From an uncultured Clostridia bacterium (GTDB lineage Bacteria; Bacillota; Clostridia; Oscillospirales; Acutalibacteraceae): a stretch of DNA of 50,523 bases. The stretch is from positions 1 through 50,523 of the forward strand of contig CALWUW010000006.1 of assembly GCA_944384815.1 (NCBI GenBank), in the 5' to 3' direction. Shown piece by piece: positions 44,486 to 50,521 of the stretch (within the stretch, counting starts at the first letter, position 1; each line of letters begins with the position of its first letter). Made by a program: the position numbers and the translations under genes. The notes beneath the pieces were generated by a model that saw only the letters and a program-made list of their open reading frames with translations, searched no databases and was not told the origin of the DNA.

Positions 44486-44602
44486 AAAAAGCAAATACAG
44501 GAATATATCAAGAGGCAGCTTGAGGAAGATCAGATTGCAGATCAAATGAGCCTCAAAGAGTTTATTGACCCGTTTACGGGTAGCAAGAATACCAAGGCAT
44601 AA
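44486..44602 (+). pseudogene. Short coding-like fragment of unknown origin
   Basis: A 38-codon stretch reads KKQIQEYIKRQLEEDQIADQ then MSLKEFIDPFTGSKNTKA and stop. Composition and regular amphipathic pattern look coding, and GGGAGG lies just before, but there is no ATG, GTG or TTG in place. On the opposite strand, next to it (about 44464-44367), another short coding-like tract begins MIMGEALPVGLFTKNG. The gene-free stretch 44230-44880 thus looks like a patchwork of fragments, followed by the palindromes listed separately. I do not recognise either parent gene. Confidence 0.35.
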
Positions 44603-44729: not shown

Positions 44730-44823
44730 TCATGACAATTTTTGTTTTCATACTTTTCAGGTTGAATATTAAAATAACACTGTTCGAAGGCAAATATGAT
44801 GATAGGAAAATTTTAAATATTGA

Positions 44824-44858
44824 TTGACAAATCCGGCAATAAGTTATATACTTATAAC
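44824..44858 (+). promoter_or_regulatory. Promoter of the IclR gene with overlapping palindromic operator
   Basis: A perfect TTGACA (44824-44829) and TATACT (44847-44852) are 17 bp apart. GTTATA-TACT-TATAAC (44843-44858) covers the -10 box. IclR-family repressors bind short palindromes of this length and commonly repress themselves, so this is a probable autoregulatory operator. Confidence 0.75.
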
Positions 44859-44889
44859 ATAATAATAAATATGTAACTAGGTGTTTGCC

Positions 44890-45657
44890 GTGTCAAAAGC
44901 TCCAGCTGTTGATTATGCATTGAAAATTATCGAGTTTCTCGCCAGGTCAAATGGTGAAGTAGGTATTTCGGATATCTGCAACGGTCTTAACATAAATAAA
45001 AATGCGATTTCGAGAGTGCTTGATGCGCTTATGGAGCAAAAATGGATTTATTTAAGCAATGTTGGGCAAAAGAAATACCGGCTTACAATGAAACCGTTTT
45101 CCGTTATATCAAAAAGTATTGAGAAAAATAATGTTGTAAAAATTTCCAGACCGTATTTAGAGCAAATACACAGTGTATTAGGCGATTCGGTATATCTCGG
45201 AATCAAAAAAGATGATAAGGTACTTTATGAGCTTCATTTTGATTCGGTAAAGGATGTCAGAATTAACGGTTGCGTTGGCGGAGAATATCCGCTTCATTGC
45301 TCGGCTCCGGGAAAGGTTCTTTTATCTTACGGCGAACGAAGTGAAATTGAAAAATATTTCAGTAGTCCCATAACAAAAAGAACCGAAAAAACCATAGCTA
45401 CAGCCGACGCCTTTTTTAAAGAGGCGGAAAAAATAAGGGAAAACGGCTATGCCGTTGATGACGAGGAGTTTGCAAAGGGCGTAGTATGCATTTCCTGTCC
45501 ATTGTTCGACAGTAACGGGCAGACGGTTGCGGCAGTCGGAATTTCAAGCCTTGCTTTATATGATGATATTGATTCGCTCATCAATGAAAAATACCCGATG
45601 ATTAAAGAGGCCGCGTATAATATTTCGCTTAGTCTCGGCTATAAGGAGGAAGCTTAA
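44890..45657 (+). CDS. IclR-family transcriptional regulator
   Basis: The 255-residue form starts at GTG 44890 (MSKAPAVDYALKIIEFLA), 6 bp after AGGTG; a GTG at 44881 overlaps that site. Residues 1-65 are a winged helix (VGISDICNGLNINKNAISRVLDALMEQ), and residues 75-250 the IclR effector domain with HCSAPGKVLLSYG and GYAVDDEEFAKGVVCISCPLFD. IclR proteins respond to small carboxylates, aromatics or sugars. Here it heads a module with a glycyl-radical enzyme and its activase, so it probably senses the GRE substrate or product. Codons are AT-rich, unlike the core genes to the left. Confidence 0.93.
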   Translation: MSKAPAVDYALKIIEFLARSNGEVGISDICNGLNINKNAISRVLDALMEQKWIYLSNVGQKKYRLTMKPFSVISKSIEKNNVVKISRPYLEQIHSVLGDSVYLGIKKDDKVLYELHFDSVKDVRINGCVGGEYPLHCSAPGKVLLSYGERSEIEKYFSSPITKRTEKTIATADAFFKEAEKIRENGYAVDDEEFAKGVVCISCPLFDSNGQTVAAVGISSLALYDDIDSLINEKYPMIKEAAYNISLSLGYKEEA

Positions 45658-45659
45658 TT

Positions 45660-46243
45660 ATGCCGCTTTGCAATTATTCGATCGTTGCATGGGAATAAGT
45701 ATAGCCGGCGAAGAATTTAACAGTTTGTGGGGTATTGTTTTCAGCGTTTCGGCGGCTCTTGAGGCAGCGGTAAACGGAGGAAAGCTTCTGTTAAAAGATT
45801 TTACAGTACCTGAAATCGGTTCTGTAAACAATATAGAGGAACTTTATAAAAGCCTTGAAAAAACAGTTGGTTATTTGTTTGCCGTTTGTGAAAAATCGTA
45901 TAGGCTTAAGGCGAGCATCAGCGAAAAAATAGACCCTGATCCGTTTGTTTCTCTGCTTACAAAAAACTGTATAGAAAAGCACTGCGACAGAATATCGTGA
46001 GCTGTTTATCATAATGTTACGGTAGAATGTATGGAAATGACAAATGTCGCGGACGGTATTTGTGCAATCGATAAACTTGTTTTTAAAGATAAAAAATACA
46101 CGCTAATCGAGCTTTGCGAAGCGGTAAAAATGAATTTCAGCGGTTTTGAAAATTTAAGACAGGATATTCTAGACTGTCCAAAATACGGACAGAATTCTGA
46201 TGCAGATAAATATGCAATACGTTTTGCGCGAATGCTATTGTAA
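45660..46243 (+). pseudogene. Decayed glycyl-radical enzyme fragment
   Basis: A start ATG at 45660 with GGAGG upstream reads only MPLCNYSIVAWE before a stop, but the next frame (45668-46000) gives FNSLWGIVFSVSAALEAAVN and NNIEELYKSLEKTVGYLF, the pattern of PFL-like enzymes. A second piece (about 46031-46243) has CAIDKLVFKDKKYTLIEL and LRQDILDCPKYGQNSDADKYA, which aligns closely with LDKLVFKEKRLEYGEF and LRQEILSFTKFGNDTEVDKY of the intact GRE downstream. The N-terminal half, the catalytic cysteine region and the glycyl loop are gone, and at least one frameshift and a stop break what is left. It is a dead paralogue of the neighbouring GRE. Confidence 0.82.
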
Positions 46244-46443
46244 AGGTACTGCCTGACGGCACAGTCACGAAGCTTTGCCAGAACGGCGATACAGACGGCT
46301 TTAACGGCGAGCTTGACGAACCCGGCGAGCCTATAATTTGGAACGGAAAATTGATTGTATCCTGTTTTGACGCGGTAACAAACGATATAGTTGTTAATAC
46401 AAAATGTGAGTTCCCGGCAACATTGGCACAAATTGAGCTTTGA
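46231..46443 (+). pseudogene. C-terminal fragment of an SMP-30/gluconolactonase-like protein
   Basis: A second frame opens over the end of the GRE fragment and reads NAIVKVLPDGTVTKLC, then DEPGEPIIWNGKLIVSCFD and KCEFPATLAQIEL before a stop at 46441-46443. This resembles the last blade of SMP-30/gluconolactonase beta-propellers. The rest of that gene is absent, so a deletion has fused the GRE remnant to it near 46230. The stop overlaps the GAGGAGGTG ribosome site of the intact GRE, which suggests the lost gene once preceded it in the operon. Family assignment is from about 70 residues. Confidence 0.6.
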
Positions 46444-46456
46444 GGAGGTGGCAATT

Positions 46457-48460
46457 ATGCCAAATCTTGAAAAAATAAAAGAAATGGTATTTGAAACGGA
46501 TAACGAGGCCTGCTTTATTGAAAGAGAGCGTATTTTGCAAAGACTGGAGTGTGAATTCAAGAATTATGATAAGACGGATAAATACGCGCTTATTTTTTCA
46601 CGCCTGTTAAGCGAGGTCTCTACTCCGATAGAGGACTGCGATTACTTTGCGGGCAGGGTTAAGGAAGCGCTGCCGGACCCCGGAATGAACGCACCGAATT
46701 GCTTGCTTTTTTCTACGGGTCATATGAGCTTTAATTATTCGGAAATTCTTAACTGCGGACTAAAGGGTATGCTTGAAAAAATCAAAAAAGCAAATACCGA
46801 CGGTGAAACGGCGGTATTTGCTCAAAATGCCGATATTGTGGTTTCGGCTGTCAGGGATTTTGCAAAGCGTTATTCGGCTACAGCTCGTAAGAAAGGCTTT
46901 GACAGAATGGCGGACGTGCTTGAAAGGGTGCCGTATGAGCCTGCGTATGATTTTTACTCCGCATTGCAAAGCGTGTGGCTTATACATATGATAGCAAGCT
47001 GTTACGTAGGAAGCCGCGATTATGCATTCGGCCGTTTTGACAGCTATATGCTTCCGTTTTATTTAAAGTCGCTTAAAAACGGTATGACAGAAGATGAGGC
47101 AACCGAGCTTTTGGCAGGATTTTTAATTAAAACAAATGAAATATGCGGCAGGTCAACCCATAATTATAAGCAAAAGCCGGTGCCTTGTCAGGCTTCAAAG
47201 CAATATGTAAATATAGGCGGCGAAGAGCCTAACGCATTTTCAAAAACAGTGCTTAAAGCAGCTATGAAAGCAAATATGGCTCAGCCCGAAATAAACGTTA
47301 TTTTAAAGCCAGACGCCGATAATGAGTTTACCGACGCTGTTTTTGAAGCAATGAGCGTTCTGACCGACAAGCTTCATATTTATAATTATGACATTATATT
47401 TAACGCGCTTACTAATAAAGGTATCGATGAGCCTACGGCAAAGGATTTCACCTTTTCCGCCTGCTGTGCTTTTGACCTCAACTACCACTCCTACCGTCTG
47501 GAATATTATGTTCCCGTACCGCAGCTATTTCTTAAAGCCCTTAAAAAGCAAAACTATGCTTCACTCGATGAGCTTGTAAATGCGGTAAAGGAAGAAATAC
47601 GCGCGGATATTCAAAGAGACGTTGACGAAAAGGAAAACAGTTTTGAAAATAAAGAATTCGCAAGACAGGCATTTGTTTTTGACGGACTGTTTCTAACCGA
47701 CAGCTCCTACGAGTGCCGCTTTGCCTGTGACGGCAGGGCAAAATATACGGTTTATAACGCTTTTGGTCCCGGTGTGGCAACCATAGGCGACTCGCTTATG
47801 GTTTTGGATAAGCTTGTTTTTAAGGAAAAAAGGCTTGAATACGGGGAATTTATTAAGATACTTGAAAATAATTTTGCGGGTAATGAAGAATTAAGACAGG
47901 AAATACTGAGCTTTACAAAATTCGGAAACGATACCGAGGTGGACAAATATACAACCTTTGCGGGAAACATTTTCCTTGATGCGGCAGACGGAGTAAGTCT
48001 CAAGGAAAACCGATACCTTATCGGAGGATTTTATTCCTTAGAGCGAGATAATTCATGGAGCGGTGAGGTCGGAGCTACGCCCGACGGCAGGCTTAGCGGA
48101 GAGCCGTTTTCCGAAAATCAGTCTCCTACCTACGGAGCGGACCGAAACGGTATAACTGCTTTGCTTAAAAGTGTCGCAAAGCTTCCGTTTTACCGCACCG
48201 CAACGGGAGGACTTAATCTTACTTTTTCCGGCAGCGTTTCCGCAAAAATACTGAAAGCTCTTATTCTTTCTTACTTTGAAATGGGCGGTCTGCATGTGGG
48301 CATAAGCGTTGTAAACCGTGAAATGCTTGAGGACGCAATGGTTAATCCTGATAAATACAAATCTCTTACCGTAAGGCTTTACGGCTTCAGCGAATACTTT
48401 ATAAGTTTACCCAAGTGGCAGCAAATAGCAGTAATCAACAGAACGATGTACAAATGCTGA
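46457..48460 (+). CDS. Glycyl-radical enzyme of the PFL-like superfamily, substrate unknown
   Basis: The 667-residue form starts at 46457 (MPNLEKIKEMVFETD), 7 bp after GAGGAGGTG. It shows the barrel motif GRFDSYMLPFYLKSL, an adjacent cysteine pair C336-C337 in FTFSACCAFDLNYHS at the thiyl position, and the glycyl loop VRLYGFSEYF with G643, 25 residues from the end, as in other GREs. The C-terminal block GGLHVGISVVNREMLEDA is standard. The eliminase-type GCxE is absent, and the loop has Leu-Tyr where most have Val-Ser. So it is not a clear diol dehydratase, choline lyase or HPAD decarboxylase; C-C resembles PFL, but the protein is shorter than PFL. The activase follows 10 bp later. Oxygen-sensitive and cytosolic. 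Confidence 0.93.
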   Translation: MPNLEKIKEMVFETDNEACFIERERILQRLECEFKNYDKTDKYALIFSRLLSEVSTPIEDCDYFAGRVKEALPDPGMNAPNCLLFSTGHMSFNYSEILNCGLKGMLEKIKKANTDGETAVFAQNADIVVSAVRDFAKRYSATARKKGFDRMADVLERVPYEPAYDFYSALQSVWLIHMIASCYVGSRDYAFGRFDSYMLPFYLKSLKNGMTEDEATELLAGFLIKTNEICGRSTHNYKQKPVPCQASKQYVNIGGEEPNAFSKTVLKAAMKANMAQPEINVILKPDADNEFTDAVFEAMSVLTDKLHIYNYDIIFNALTNKGIDEPTAKDFTFSACCAFDLNYHSYRLEYYVPVPQLFLKALKKQNYASLDELVNAVKEEIRADIQRDVDEKENSFENKEFARQAFVFDGLFLTDSSYECRFACDGRAKYTVYNAFGPGVATIGDSLMVLDKLVFKEKRLEYGEFIKILENNFAGNEELRQEILSFTKFGNDTEVDKYTTFAGNIFLDAADGVSLKENRYLIGGFYSLERDNSWSGEVGATPDGRLSGEPFSENQSPTYGADRNGITALLKSVAKLPFYRTATGGLNLTFSGSVSAKILKALILSYFEMGGLHVGISVVNREMLEDAMVNPDKYKSLTVRLYGFSEYFISLPKWQQIAVINRTMYKC

Positions 48461-48470
48461 GGAAATCAAA

Positions 48471-49304
48471 ATGCAGGGAAATATTTTTAATATACAGCGT
48501 TTTTGCGTGAACGATGGTCCCGGAATAAGAACCACTGTATTTTTTAAGGGCTGTCCACTTTCTTGTACGTGGTGTCACAATCCCGAGAGTCAGTCCTTTG
48601 AACCGGAAATACTTTTCTACAGAGATAAATGTACCGGCTGCGGCAGATGCAAAAATCTGACCGTGAACAATGCAGATTTTATCTGTTTTAACGGGGCAAA
48701 AGAAATTTTCGGAAAAACGGTTGATTCCGACTATGTGATTTCCGAGGTATTAAAGGATAAAATATTTTATGATTCTTCGGACGGAGGAATGACCCTTTCG
48801 GGCGGCGAGCCGCTGTCTCAGCCTGAATTTACGCTTGAACTGCTTAAAAAAGCAAAGGAATACAAAATACATACGGCTTTGGAAACCTGCGGCTTTGCAA
48901 ATACCGAGGTTATGAGAAAAGCCGCTGAACTGACAGACCTGTTTTTATTTGATTACAAGGAAACAGATCCAATACTTCATAAGAAAATTACCGGGCAAGA
49001 TAACATCCTGATACTTAATAACCTTAATTTGCTTAACGTTCTCGGGAAAAAGGTTATACTGCGCTGTCCGATAATTCCGGGGTTTAATGACAGAGACAAT
49101 CATTTTTTGGGAATTTCAAAAACTGCAAACTGTTTTGAATGCATAGAGCATATAGAAATAGAGCCTTATCACTCTCTCGGAGCAGAGAAATACGAAGCTC
49201 TCGGCAGAAAACATCCGAACATTGCAGTCCCCGAAGCAGCGGCAGTGGAAGGTTGGCTTGAAAAGCTTCGCTCCCTGACAGAAAAAGAAGTGAAAAGGGC
49301 ATAA
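48471..49304 (+). CDS. Glycyl-radical enzyme activase (PflA-like radical SAM)
   Basis: This 277-residue enzyme uses SAM and a [4Fe-4S] cluster to place the radical on the GRE glycine. The radical-SAM cysteines are C28, C32 and C35 in KGCPLSCTWCHNPES. The family insert for extra iron-sulfur clusters is reduced: C54, C57 and C60 (CTGCGRC) plus C72, so probably one auxiliary cluster rather than two. DGGMTLSGGEPLSQPEF and LETCGFA are the usual SAM-binding strands. A GAGGAAA site overlaps the GRE stop, so translation is coupled. The stop lies only a few bases from the end of a truncated TnpV gene on the other strand. Confidence 0.95.
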   Translation: MQGNIFNIQRFCVNDGPGIRTTVFFKGCPLSCTWCHNPESQSFEPEILFYRDKCTGCGRCKNLTVNNADFICFNGAKEIFGKTVDSDYVISEVLKDKIFYDSSDGGMTLSGGEPLSQPEFTLELLKKAKEYKIHTALETCGFANTEVMRKAAELTDLFLFDYKETDPILHKKITGQDNILILNNLNLLNVLGKKVILRCPIIPGFNDRDNHFLGISKTANCFECIEHIEIEPYHSLGAEKYEALGRKHPNIAVPEAAAVEGWLEKLRSLTEKEVKRA

Positions 49305-49307
49305 TCA

Positions 49308-49526
49308 TCAATTTGCAGAGTGAGTATAACTTTTTAGTTTGCCGCTGGTGAGTAGGTTAATATAAAGCACCTTTCTACTGTGTTGTTTGAGATATCGCAA
49401 GTGTTGTTGTCCCCATAAGCCGATAGACTGTTGTTCTCCTTCAGATAGCTTCAAACACGGAAGGTAGTAGTCAACTTGAAATTTATACCATAGCCCGTTT
49501 TTCTCGTCAAAAATGTACTTTCCCAT
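49308..49526 (-). pseudogene. TnpV-like transposon protein, truncated
   Basis: The start at 49526 follows AGGAGG by 7 bp. The 72 residues read DYYLPCLKLSEGEQQSIGLW and HLRYLKQHSRKVLYINLLTSGKL, matching TnpV proteins (YYIPxLxLPE, IGKWGxLRxxYLKEH, YxxLLLSGKL) of Clostridia transposons. Typical TnpV proteins are about 120 residues; this one ends SYTHSAN right where the GRE island begins. It was probably cut by insertion of the island or by a deletion. TnpV function is unknown. It is 2 bp after the small upstream gene. Confidence 0.7.
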
Positions 49527-49528
49527 AA

Positions 49529-49714
49529 TCACGCCTCCTTGAAAATTACCTTAAACTTCTTTTGCTTTGCCCCAATGATTTTATACAGAACTTCATCTAT
49601 TGTATCGGTGTACTTGCCGCCGGTAATAAGATTGTTCCGCATTTCGTTAAGGCAGTTCACAACCACCCGCCGTTCCAAATCATCAAGTGCAATGTAATAT
49701 TTCTTATCCAGCAT
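49529..49714 (-). CDS. Small mobile-element protein (61 aa)
   Basis: MLDKKYYIALDDLERRVVVN and CLNEMRNNLITGGKYTDTID form a compact helical protein of 61 residues with a basic end (AKQKKFKVIFKEA). Closely similar small proteins are common in integrative and conjugative elements of gut Bacillota; I know no function for them. AAGGAG lies 8 bp before the start. The downstream TnpV remnant starts 2 bp after its stop, so they form one transcription unit. Confidence 0.75.
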   Translation of the reverse strand: MLDKKYYIALDDLERRVVVNCLNEMRNNLITGGKYTDTIDEVLYKIIGAKQKKFKVIFKEA

Positions 49715-49786
49715 ATTGCAATCTCCTTCGAGTTTCTACAATCATTGTATCCGTTGGAATAATAAAAATCGAATGTGTGGATATGA

Positions 49787-49831
49787 AAAAATGAGCGTAC
49801 CCATCCTTTTCGGACAAGCACGCTCATTTTT
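49787..49831. terminator. Terminator after the double-HTH gene
   Basis: AAAATGAGCGT (49788-49798) pairs with ACGCTCATTTT (49820-49830). A/T runs on both sides make it usable in both directions. Confidence 0.8.
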
Positions 49832-50258
49832 ATATTTCTGGGCAGGCGGTTTTTAATTGCAGATACATCTTTCGTGACGGGCGGCGGTTGCCGGATTCCC
49901 ATTTGGCGTAAATGCTTGGAGCAATGCCTGCTTTCTCAGCAAAATCGCTTTGGTTAAGGTTTTGGCACTTCCTAACTGCCTTCAGTCGTTCAGTATATGG
50001 GCAGCTTATAAAGATGCAGAAATCATCAAACATCAGCTTTTCAGATATTTGTAATTCTTCGGATAGCATAACGGCTATATCATACGGTATTGGGAAACGC
50101 CCCTGTTCATAGCCGAGAGCTGTTGCCGGTACAATGTTTAACTTCTCTGCAAGCTGCCTTGTGGTCAGCCCCCTCAGTTGGCGATAGTAGCGCATGTATT
50201 CTCCGGGACTGTTTAATTCACTCGATGCTTCAAAGATAAATCTCAAATGCATCAGCAT
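49830..50258 (-). CDS. Protein with two tandem HTH (XRE) domains, N-terminus uncertain
   Basis: From ATG 50258 it has 142 residues. The first HTH is MRYYRQLRGLTTRQLAEKLN with ALGYEQGRFPIP (about residues 22-60); the second is RLKAVRKCQNLNQSDFAEKA with SIYAKWESGNRRPS (about 90-135). Tandem XRE domains in one small protein suggest a DNA-binding regulator of the mobile element. There is no ribosome site before 50258, and the same frame continues upstream as TVLNHTELYEYRHGKM (to about 50312), which looks coding, until a stop. The gene may therefore have lost its true start when it was joined to the nucleotidyltransferase fragment upstream. Confidence 0.7.
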   Translation of the reverse strand: MLMHLRFIFEASSELNSPGEYMRYYRQLRGLTTRQLAEKLNIVPATALGYEQGRFPIPYDIAVMLSEELQISEKLMFDDFCIFISCPYTERLKAVRKCQNLNQSDFAEKAGIAPSIYAKWESGNRRPSRKMYLQLKTACPEI

Positions 50259-50521
50259 CTTGCCGTGTCGGTATTCATACAGTTCTGTGTGATTGAGAAC
50301 AGTATCGCATTTTCAATATCACAAAAAATACTGTCAATATAATCTCGCAATGGAACACCGGAAAAGACACTATCAATCTTCTCTCCATATAATACAATTC
50401 CATACTTGTTTATTATGGTAAAATGAGCAGCAAGGTCTTTATCCGTTCCTTTCATTTTTTTGATGTATTCAGTTGGATTGTCCAAATACCATTGCAGATG
50501 CATAGGAGAAAAATGCAGTTC
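50252..50521 (-). pseudogene. Aminoglycoside nucleotidyltransferase-like (DUF4111) fragment, runs off the window
   Basis: The frame is open at the window edge (ELHFSP before MHLQWYLDNPTEYIKKMKG). LAAHFTIINKYGIVLYGEKI and VPLRDYIDSIFCDIENA match the C-terminal DUF4111 domain of AadA/ANT(9)-like nucleotidyltransferases, enzymes that adenylylate spectinomycin-type drugs. After DIENA the normal family continuation (helices with NPMYxxLNLCRVLA) is missing and the frame ends ILFSITQNCMNTDTARC. The break near 50310 coincides with the start of the coding-like extension of the double-HTH gene, so the 3' third is probably deleted. Whether the N-terminal catalytic domain is intact lies outside the window. 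Confidence 0.6.

Follow-up and report, generated by a model that had tools for sequence, protein, structure and literature searches.

A glycyl-radical enzyme module in an uncultured Clostridia bacterium is probably a transferred, deletion-shrunken derivative of a larger sugar-catabolic operon

The window, by which we mean the whole 50,523-nucleotide stretch of DNA that was analysed, carries an AT-rich insert at 44.7–49.3 kb in which an IclR-family regulator, a glycyl-radical enzyme (GRE) of 667 aa and an activase are encoded on a single strand. The original prediction of an AT-rich island is borne out by both regional and third-position G+C: the former is 0.40–0.43 at 45–49 kb compared with 0.47–0.60 across 3–44 kb, where 35 of 41 one-kb intervals reach at least 0.50, and the latter is 0.37–0.42 in the IclR, GRE and activase genes compared with 0.58–0.71 in three upstream genes. 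Given this mismatch, the insert is likely to be recent in this genome. The features of the insert and its borders are as follows.

44486..44602, + strand: tail (remnant) of an IS200-like transposase, 38 codons with the TAA ending at 44602, then hairpins; left border of the insert
44824..44852, + strand: sigma-70-like promoter, TTGACA-17-TATACT, 11 of 12 matches, top among the + strand sites listed
44843..44858, no strand assigned: palindrome GTTATA-N4-TATAAC over the -10 box, perfect 6-bp arms
44890..45657, + strand: IclR-family regulator, 255 aa (Pfam IclR_C 2.5e-37, HTH_IclR 1.3e-6)
45660..45683, + strand: start of a CMGIS-type GRE gene, cut off by a deletion after 8 codons (MPLCNYSI), from comparison with related loci L005 and L062
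45680..46240, + strand: internal remnant of a CMGIS-type GRE (query residues 335–522), 58% identity to the GRE of related locus L019, E 8e-62
46222..46443, + strand: C-terminal remnant of an SMP-30/gluconolactonase-like protein (residues 258–330), 90% identity to the L019 SMP-30, E 1e-37
46457..48460, + strand: GRE of the ACC subfamily, 667 aa from ATG 46457 (PFL-like 1e-55, Gly_radical 2.9e-18)
48471..49304, + strand: radical-SAM GRE activase, 277 aa, with a shortened ferredoxin insert (TIGR02494)
49308..49532, - strand: TnpV transposon protein in the right flank (Pfam TnpV 2.9e-16, profile 1–57 of 111, the first half)
49830..50258, - strand: double HTH_3 repressor-like protein (HTH_3 1.3e-16)

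The insert had also been described as bounded by fragments and mobile-element genes, which agrees with the IS200-like tail on its left and TnpV on its right. The 38 codons of the transposase tail gave no match of their own in a Pfam scan; the tail matches the right flank of L005 at 71% over 79 bp (E 1.8e-4, two-sequence comparison), and a reading frame in that flank matches Y1_Tnp (28.2 bits, cut-off 23). The HTH_3 protein, of whose gene L005 lacks about 0.23 kb, probably belongs to a mobile element. Searching plasmids with the right flank gave no match, and searching phages gave one, covering 16% of the flank. For the GRE itself, the plasmid search returned 12 records with distant GREs, all below 60% identity (eight listed at about 27%), and five viral stretches fitted a pattern, none of them encoding a relative; on these grounds a plasmid or viral home for the module was rejected. 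An Rfam scan of the window gave a single match, a tRNA.

The start of the IclR gene is best placed at GTG 44890, since homologues open with MSKAPAVDYA or MSRAPAVDYA; orthologues in L007, L021 and L062 are 57–60% identical. A promoter scan found 19 promoter-like sites compared with 11.1 in shuffled sequence, so that a single site is weak evidence. TTGACA and TATA(C/A)T align in all five IclR loci compared. The palindrome has perfect 6-bp arms in the window and L005; in L007 the arms are changed yet still pair (TGTAATA-N4-TATTACA), and in L021 and L062 the palindrome is partial only. We conclude from this sequence pattern that the palindrome is likely the IclR operator, in line with the expectation of a regulator with its own operator.

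Pfam and TIGR02494 matches place the GRE and its activase on the same strand as IclR, as predicted. The activase scores 295 bits against TIGR02494 (cut-off 174) and contains the CX3CX2C motif as CPLSCTWC, which qualifies it as a GRE-activating radical-SAM enzyme. The GRE, scanned as a 689-aa frame from TTG 46391, scores 190.1 bits against PFL-like (cut-off 24.3) and 66.8 bits against Gly_radical (cut-off 22.2). Together with the glycine motif VRLYGF and the central cysteine loop SACCAFD, these scores assign it to the glycyl-radical enzyme (PFL-like) superfamily. As originally noted, the eliminase motif GCxE is lacking. By alignment Cys336 is the catalytic cysteine and Ala338 occupies the position of the lost CxE glutamate, a position that is Ala in the window and L005 and Thr in the seven other loci of the clade. 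The GRE thus lacks the glutamate, two residues after the catalytic cysteine, that marks the 1,2-eliminases with CxE (GD, PD, CutC, HypD, IslA and HpsG). An AF2 model had a mean pLDDT of 71.9 and a pTM of 0.77, with residues 343–345 and 620–667 below 50, and we therefore took the active site from the alignment instead.

Every NCBIfam GRE cut-off lies far above the scores of this protein, again scanned as the 689-aa frame. It scores highest, at 268.6 bits, with TIGR01774, for which the cut-off is 678.2. The full-length equivalogs listed, eight in number (PflD, HypD, HpsG, HpfG, CutC, IAD, HPAD and PFL1), give 75.6–205.3 bits against cut-offs of 994–1150, so that identity with any of these eight was rejected. 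Because no NCBIfam GRE family claims the protein and the CxE glutamate is missing, the suggestion of an undescribed reaction stands, as a prediction from sequence. A phylum search with an eight-row profile (E ≤ 1e-100) hit one of 398 genomes, the window's own, and searches within the orders of genomes G078, G080 and G079 found those genomes alone (1 of 51, 1 of 6 and 1 of 16, respectively). A quick tree of 42 of 43 rows placed all GREs lacking the glutamate in one clade (support 95). However, a mixture-model tree of 34 rows, from which nine PFL, long-branch and near-copy rows had been dropped, grouped only the ACC and CNWPD types (96) and placed the CMGIS type in a polytomy that includes a TCVE-type group (90). 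An AU test neither rejected a 13-row clade lacking the glutamate (p 0.57) nor demonstrated it. We therefore did not retain a single clade of all such GREs.

The 0.8 kb between the IclR and GRE genes consists of the fused remains of two further genes, a second GRE and an SMP-30/lactonase-like protein. L005 retains about 40 codons of the start of the same CMGIS-type GRE gene, with a local score of 103 to L062, the highest of 200 shuffles being 44. The internal remnant matches the PFL-like profile at 430–532 and 551–616 and has an in-frame TGA at 45998–46000. By tblastn, the order in the window is IclR, CMGIS-type GRE 335–522, SMP-30 258–330, ACC-type GRE and activase, and the order of the remnants is collinear with the genes of L019. 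The module had been described as compact and possibly stand-alone; with remnants of a second GRE and SMP-30 at 45660–46443, pieces of two genes that flank the GRE in relatives, it is not compact by design.

The prediction had further argued from the absence of neighbours that usually reveal GRE chemistry. That argument is not supported. Relatives have such neighbours. L019 is intact, in the order CMGIS-type GRE, DeoC, GH43, Zn-dehydrogenase, FGGY kinase, SMP-30, ACC-type GRE and activase; it is the sole locus with the entire gene set and an ACC-type GRE, and has no adjoining IclR. In L006 the ACC-type GRE adjoins a solute-binding protein gene, and sugar genes surround ACC-type GREs in L019, L020 and L006. 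L069 reads ADH, FGGY, SMP-30, DeoC, activase and a GRE with a CNW loop, not of the ACC type; L070 reads ADH, FGGY, SMP-30 and DeoC, then the activase start, its contig ending inside the activase before any GRE. As both come from one genus of another family, we count them as one further lineage. ADH, FGGY, SMP-30 and DeoC thus all stand beside a GRE and activase in L019 and L069, an arrangement of which, next to its own GRE and activase, the window has just the end of SMP-30 and one GRE fragment left. The L019 DeoC scores 229 bits against a curated cut-off of 117, and the DeoC proteins of L019, L069 and L070 retain KTSTGF and KAAGG, motifs with catalytic roles. In L008 there is no SMP-30 match, the neighbours instead being DeoR-like and AraM-like Fe-dehydrogenase genes, and at L009 no FGGY, DeoC, ADH or SMP-30 was matched.

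Damage is found in six of nine loci carrying an ACC-type GRE. L005 shares window positions 44733–45690, 46278–49940 and 50165–50312 at 98.7, 99.5 and 99.3%, with different flanks, and has a different internal deletion, joining GRE codons 1 to about 40 to SMP-30 residue ~270. L007 has only SMP-30 4–149, with an in-frame stop, and an activase cut after about 55 aa; L021 keeps only SMP-30 252–330; L020 has FGGY 128–502 fused to a serine recombinase; L009 has a stop at codon 164 of the GRE-matching region; and the L062 activase lacks about 82 aa.

We conclude that the module probably derives, by transfer and shrinkage through deletions, from a larger anaerobic GRE operon for sugar catabolism. Comparison of the loci shows that, before the deletions called here from MAG contigs, a CMGIS-type GRE gene followed IclR and SMP-30 preceded the ACC-type GRE and activase. 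The stretch that begins with codon 9 of the first GRE and ends near SMP-30 residue 257 is missing from the window, save for one internal GRE piece. From L019 we infer that DeoC, GH43, Zn-dehydrogenase and FGGY kinase genes once lay between the remnants. Counting against this reading are the single full locus L019, with no IclR next to it, the origin of L069 and L070 in one genus, and the differing surroundings of the GRE in L008 and L009. An apparent minimal module can thus be what deletions left over, its lost neighbours readable from the debris.

A different reading, which we consider improbable, is that the three genes form a minimal yet complete catabolic unit, in which a single GRE reaction would supply central metabolism with no need for the genes that lay between. 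In both the window and L005 the frames of IclR, GRE and activase are uninterrupted while the genes between are wrecked, L021 also retains the three with only a stub between, and other FGGY kinases of the same genome (best 35% identity) might complement. However, L007 has IclR and the GRE with most of the activase gone and L062 retained the opposite end, so no fixed core is preserved; the recent arrival of the insert and the Ala338 substitution also argue against this reading. Between the window and L006 GREs we counted 26 synonymous codons and 31 amino-acid changes, a dN/dS of 0.28–0.32. This is below 1, as a minimal unit would have it, and implies some constraint on the GRE lineage, which may still work; it is also two to three times the L007–L021 value (0.11–0.12), and another GRE pair gives 0.05–0.09. 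Private changes number two in the window and one in L006, the low window count being due in part to the inclusion of L006, a near relative. Activity of the window copy itself is doubtful, because Ala338 replaces a residue that is Thr in seven of nine loci and Glu in the eliminases. The raised ratio, together with the missing pathway genes, Ala338 in both the window and L005 and the mobile flanks, would suit a wholly dead relic in which the three genes are of no use to the host. We regard this as unlikely, though it overlaps with the shrunken-operon explanation, which leaves activity open. For window and L005, dN/dS is 0.36 for the GRE and 0.27 for IclR; the activase value of 1.09, which would favour a relic, comes from five changed bases only. 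Against a relic speak these GRE and IclR values, the window–L006 ratio well under 1, and the state of the three frames (255, 667 and 277 aa), all of which are open and still have their start sites and the promoter.

The adjacent cysteines (ACC) could indicate a PFL-like carbon-carbon lyase acting on a 2-keto acid, since PFL likewise has ACC at this position and lacks the glutamate; a PFL-like frame of the same genome reads AIACCVS. This is very unlikely. Both alignments give the first cysteine of the pair as catalytic, and the second is Asn in L022. The PFL pair sits one residue earlier, and the PFL model gives 75.6 bits against 994.2, for which reasons pyruvate formate-lyase identity was rejected; the sugar genes around ACC-type GREs also speak against it. 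We give even less weight to an assembly artefact, in which related GRE genes were joined into chimaeras. The data are from MAGs only and GRE paralogues are abundant in such genomes (a first look gave as many as 24 candidates in G084). However, the insert recurs at 98.7–99.5% identity in two assemblies whose flanks differ, and damage types vary across six loci. Where the two parent matches meet at the window's second junction, they have 16 bases in common by tblastn and none by blastn, which is short for an assembler join.

For the module, we infer autorepression by IclR, which would bind the palindrome that covers the -10 box until a sugar-derived ligand frees it. The glycyl radical would be placed on the GRE by the activase, and Cys336 would abstract hydrogen from the substrate, a compound resembling a sugar or polyol. 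Alignment to glycerol dehydratase suggests His89, Arg187, Asp188 and an acid near position 349 as the residues that bind it. In the intact pathway the deoxygenated sugar would pass to the Zn-dehydrogenase, FGGY kinase and DeoC, the last cleaving a 2-deoxy-sugar phosphate to acetaldehyde and glyceraldehyde phosphate. The intact operon probably makes such a phosphate for DeoC, and from known chemistry the conversion of a pentitol to a 2-deoxypentose would fit. At the window site the pathway is incomplete, and the GRE may be active, altered or dying.

More tentatively, the ACC, CNWPD and CMGIS types may all be short GREs, with the eliminase glutamate replaced, in an undescribed anaerobic sugar route with Zn-dehydrogenase, SMP-30, FGGY kinase and DeoC. 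Here oxygen would be stripped from a pentose-level sugar, polyol or lactone, ending in an aldol cleavage of the deoxyribose-phosphate type. The recurrence of these GREs with a kinase, a lactonase-like protein, a dehydrogenase and DeoC points to sugar deoxygenation, with L019 and L069 as intact loci. If true, this would be new GRE chemistry and a new degradation of plant-polysaccharide sugars. Newly assigned GRE families have often exposed gut reactions invisible to sequence alone. Our searches of the open-licence PMC library, on which "undescribed" rests here, showed no pathway that combines a GRE with DeoC, SMP-30 and FGGY.

Among the best fold matches to the GRE are the B12-independent glycerol/propanediol dehydratases (PDB 1r8w, 5i2a and 9rco). 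1r8w is its best PDB sequence match (181 bits by single sequence, 291 bits by profile), its His164 and Cys433 aligning with His89 and Cys336. The window GRE differs in being about 120 residues shorter than these dehydratases, with 23% identity to 1r8w in structural alignment; Glu435 of 1r8w is Thr or Ala in ACC-type GREs, and His281-Ser282 becomes Arg-Asp. E. coli YbiW and PflD, described in PMC12441222 as lyases of 1,5-anhydroglucitol and 1,5-anhydromannitol 6-phosphate and linked there to a phosphotransferase system, are also close in the fold search (8id7, 8yjo and 8id0) and act on a sugar-derived polyol phosphate. However, structural alignment gives 21–22% identity, and NF007437 scores 205 of 1109. 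Sugar-phosphate-utilising microcompartment loci resemble the intact operon in having a DeoC-like aldolase in a degradative locus, but the excerpts of PMC4207490 name no GRE in them, and no shell-protein family was among the frames scanned here. Trans-4-hydroxyproline dehydratase (HypD), of the same superfamily, is encoded elsewhere in the window's genome, and that protein scores 1524 against the HypD cut-off of 1100, compared with 190 for the window GRE.

The 44.7–49.3 kb module lies in sequence of distinct base composition. From ~44.73 kb the G+C content is 0.40–0.43, compared with 0.47–0.60 over 3–44 kb, where 35 of 41 one-kb windows have a G+C content of 0.50 or more; at third codon positions it is 0.37–0.42 in the module genes versus 0.58–0.71 in three upstream genes of the window. 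As originally predicted, this AT-rich island carries an IclR regulator, a glycyl-radical enzyme (GRE) and an activase on one strand. In order, the sequence contains:

44890–45657, + strand: IclR regulator (family match)
45660–45683, + strand: start of a GRE gene, directly after the IclR stop (translation, MPLCNYSI)
45680–46237, + strand: internal piece of a CMGIS-type GRE, matching residues 335–522 of the GRE at locus L019 (tblastn, 58% identity, E = 8e-62)
46222–46440, + strand: SMP-30 piece, matching residues 258–330 of the L019 SMP-30 (tblastn, 90%, E = 1e-37), with the window GRE next
46457–48460, + strand: GRE of the ACC Cys-loop type, 667 aa (ATG start, GGAGG upstream)
48471–49304, + strand: GRE activase (family match)

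The ORF list offers an alternative TTG start for the GRE at 46391, the extra residues of which overlap the SMP-30 remnant. Elsewhere in the source genome (2.0 Mb in 37 contigs, the window being positions 1–50523 of one of them), a search with the window GRE turned up a HypD, which scores 1524 bits with its own family model (cut-off 1100), and a frame bearing the PFL Cys motif.

The module had also been read as a compact, self-contained and possibly stand-alone cassette. That reading is unlikely, given the wrecked CMGIS GRE (with one in-frame TGA) and SMP-30 inside the module, and a fuller operon in L019. A near-identical locus, L005, lies on a Lachnospiraceae MAG contig with different flanks, and matches 44733–45690 at 98.7%, 46278–49940 at 99.5% and 50165–50312 at 99.3%; the two GRE genes differ at 7 of 2001 bases. 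L005 retains, between its IclR and GRE genes, a ~40-codon stretch of that CMGIS GRE, followed by SMP-30 from residue ~270. Aligned with locus L062, this CMGIS stub gave a local score of 103, the highest of 200 shuffles being 44. The debris thus differs between the window and L005, and we therefore conclude that these are two near-identical copies carrying different deletions of the same operon.

In L019, the order of transcription is GRE (SCMGIS), DeoC (TIGR00126, 229 bits; cut-off 117), GH43, Zn-dehydrogenase, FGGY kinase (XylB model, 411.8 bits; cut-off 380), SMP-30, window-type GRE (68% identity to the window GRE), activase, GRE (ACWEF), activase and a raffinose-synthase-like gene. Around this operon are GH2, melibiase-like, heparinase-like and solute-binding genes and, by eye, permease-like frames. 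Locus L006 (95% identity), on a contig that begins within SMP-30, has SMP-30 directly 5′ of the GRE, followed by the activase and a solute-binding protein. SMP-30 was matched at E ≤ 1e-50 in 5 of 351 class genomes (G078, the source of L019; G079; and three others). Two of these others, represented by loci L069 and L070 and both from one genus of family f13, share the order Zn-dehydrogenase, FGGY, SMP-30, DeoC and activase; the L070 contig stops within the activase, after which L069 has a GRE with a CNW loop. At L071, from a different family, SMP-30 adjoins a CNWPD GRE at the contig end. It is chiefly the L069/L070 arrangement, found in a single lineage separate from that of L019, that argues for a pathway. 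We found no description of a GRE sugar operon of the L019 kind in the open-licence PMC literature.

An ACC-type GRE with at least 53% identity occurs at nine loci, six of them damaged: the window, L005, L007 (an SMP-30 stub with an in-frame stop, and an activase match stopping after ~55 residues), L009 (a single stop, at codon 164 of the matched region), L020 (an in-frame fusion of FGGY residues 128–502 and a serine recombinase) and L021 (an SMP-30 stub). The same comparison revealed no damage in L006, L008 or L019. L062 keeps IclR, another GRE, the CMGIS GRE and an activase lacking ~82 residues, and shares AraC-GRE-activase neighbours with L021; no ACC GRE was found in its genome at E ≤ 1e-80. 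Because no fixed core survives at every locus, the comparison speaks for erosion over selection for an IclR-GRE-activase unit. Judged from these sequences, the module is probably the decayed form, acquired by transfer, of a GRE sugar operon. Its parts are ordinary but what they reveal is unusual, and the interest attaches chiefly to the intact relatives and less to the copy in the window.

The predicted flanking by fragments and mobile genes was borne out, with an IS200-like tail and hairpins on the left and TnpV, a 61-aa frame and a double-HTH protein on the right. L005 has a related IS200-like tail at its right border (Y1_Tnp, 28.2 bits); at its left border a frame resembles, by eye, a truncated group II intron reverse transcriptase, and had no Pfam match. 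Plasmid and viral searches returned no member of the ACC-GRE clade. TTGACA and TATA(C/A)T align in each of the five IclR loci that were compared. The palindrome covering the −10 box has perfect arms in the window, in L005 and, with other arm letters, in L007, and is partial in L021 and L062, which fits possible IclR autorepression via the palindrome.

The GRE subfamily is rare, with matches at E ≤ 1e-60 in 7 of 391 class genomes: the source genome and three at 62–68% are clade members, and three are distant (32–36%). Profile alignment to glycerol dehydratase (1r8w) pairs C336 with Cys433, A338 with Glu435, H89 with His164 and R187-D188 with His281-Ser282; an acidic residue near 349 falls at Asp447 or beside it. 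The conserved Cys and Gly are present and, as noted originally, the eliminase GCxE motif is absent. CMGIS and CNWPD GREs of the same operons also lack CxE. Position 338 is Ala in the window and L005 and Thr at the seven remaining ACC-GRE loci, and is one of 2 positions at which the window GRE departs from a residue common to the six other sequences aligned (equivalent counts: L006, 1; L019, 25; L020, 30). GRE dN/dS is 0.28–0.32 for window-L006, 0.11–0.12 for L007-L021 and 0.05–0.09 for another GRE pair; for window-L005 it is 0.36 (GRE), 0.27 (IclR) and 1.09 (activase), from 7, 8 and 5 changed bases, respectively. These ratios suggest constraint on the window GRE lineage, but weaker. ACC and CNWPD GREs are sisters (SH-aLRT 96), and CMGIS may join them. 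A fold search with a predicted model of moderate confidence gave 77 matches at E ≤ 0.001, the best 50 of which are all GREs; 2f3o, 1r8w, propanediol dehydratase, PflD and YbiW head the matches listed.

In the pathway we propose, the GRE would attack a sugar- or polyol-like substrate by radical abstraction and remove an oxygen function; in place of the missing CxE Glu it could use Asp188 or the acidic residue near 349. The Zn-dehydrogenase would supply an oxidation or reduction step, SMP-30 may handle a lactone, the FGGY kinase would phosphorylate and DeoC would carry out aldol cleavage. By reasoning only, conversion of a pentitol to a 2-deoxypentose would suit DeoC. One report describes YbiW and PflD converting anhydrohexitol phosphates to 1-deoxyfructose 6-phosphate (PMC12441222), a precedent for GREs able to act on cyclic polyol phosphates.

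Activases of ACC GREs lose their ferredoxin insert by degrees (alignment of window 48471–49304, L019, L009, L020, L021 and L008): insert Cys suffice for two clusters in L019 and L009, for about one in the window, L006, L020 and L021, and for none in L008. This graded loss is a natural series on the need for auxiliary clusters. L008 (7063–9966) provides another context for an ACC GRE, 3′ of a DeoR-like regulator (by eye), an AraM-like Fe-dehydrogenase (Fe-ADH_2, 7.6e-33) and a HAD-like phosphatase (by eye). The FGGY fusion partner in L020 (3524–5929) is a large serine recombinase with Resolvase, Recombinase and Zn ribbon domains. Two tandem AraC-GRE-activase units with GCYET and GCNEP loops lie beside the IclR locus in L021 (12000–19901) and L062 (1431–9437), from two genomes of one family. 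Another short GRE family, whose ACWEF loop retains CxE, is found in sugar contexts (L010, 9677–11755; L011, 4326–6404; L019, 5862–7811), among them a Lentisphaerae contig on which a neighbouring gene looks, by eye, like an arabinofuranosidase. Genomes G084, G080, G079 and G078 are GRE-rich, with 24, 14, 9 and 6 first-look candidates (TIGR01774); the Cys loops of these Clostridia GREs vary (GCYE, GCNE, ACWE, GCSQ, GCQW), and many score under curated-family cut-offs.
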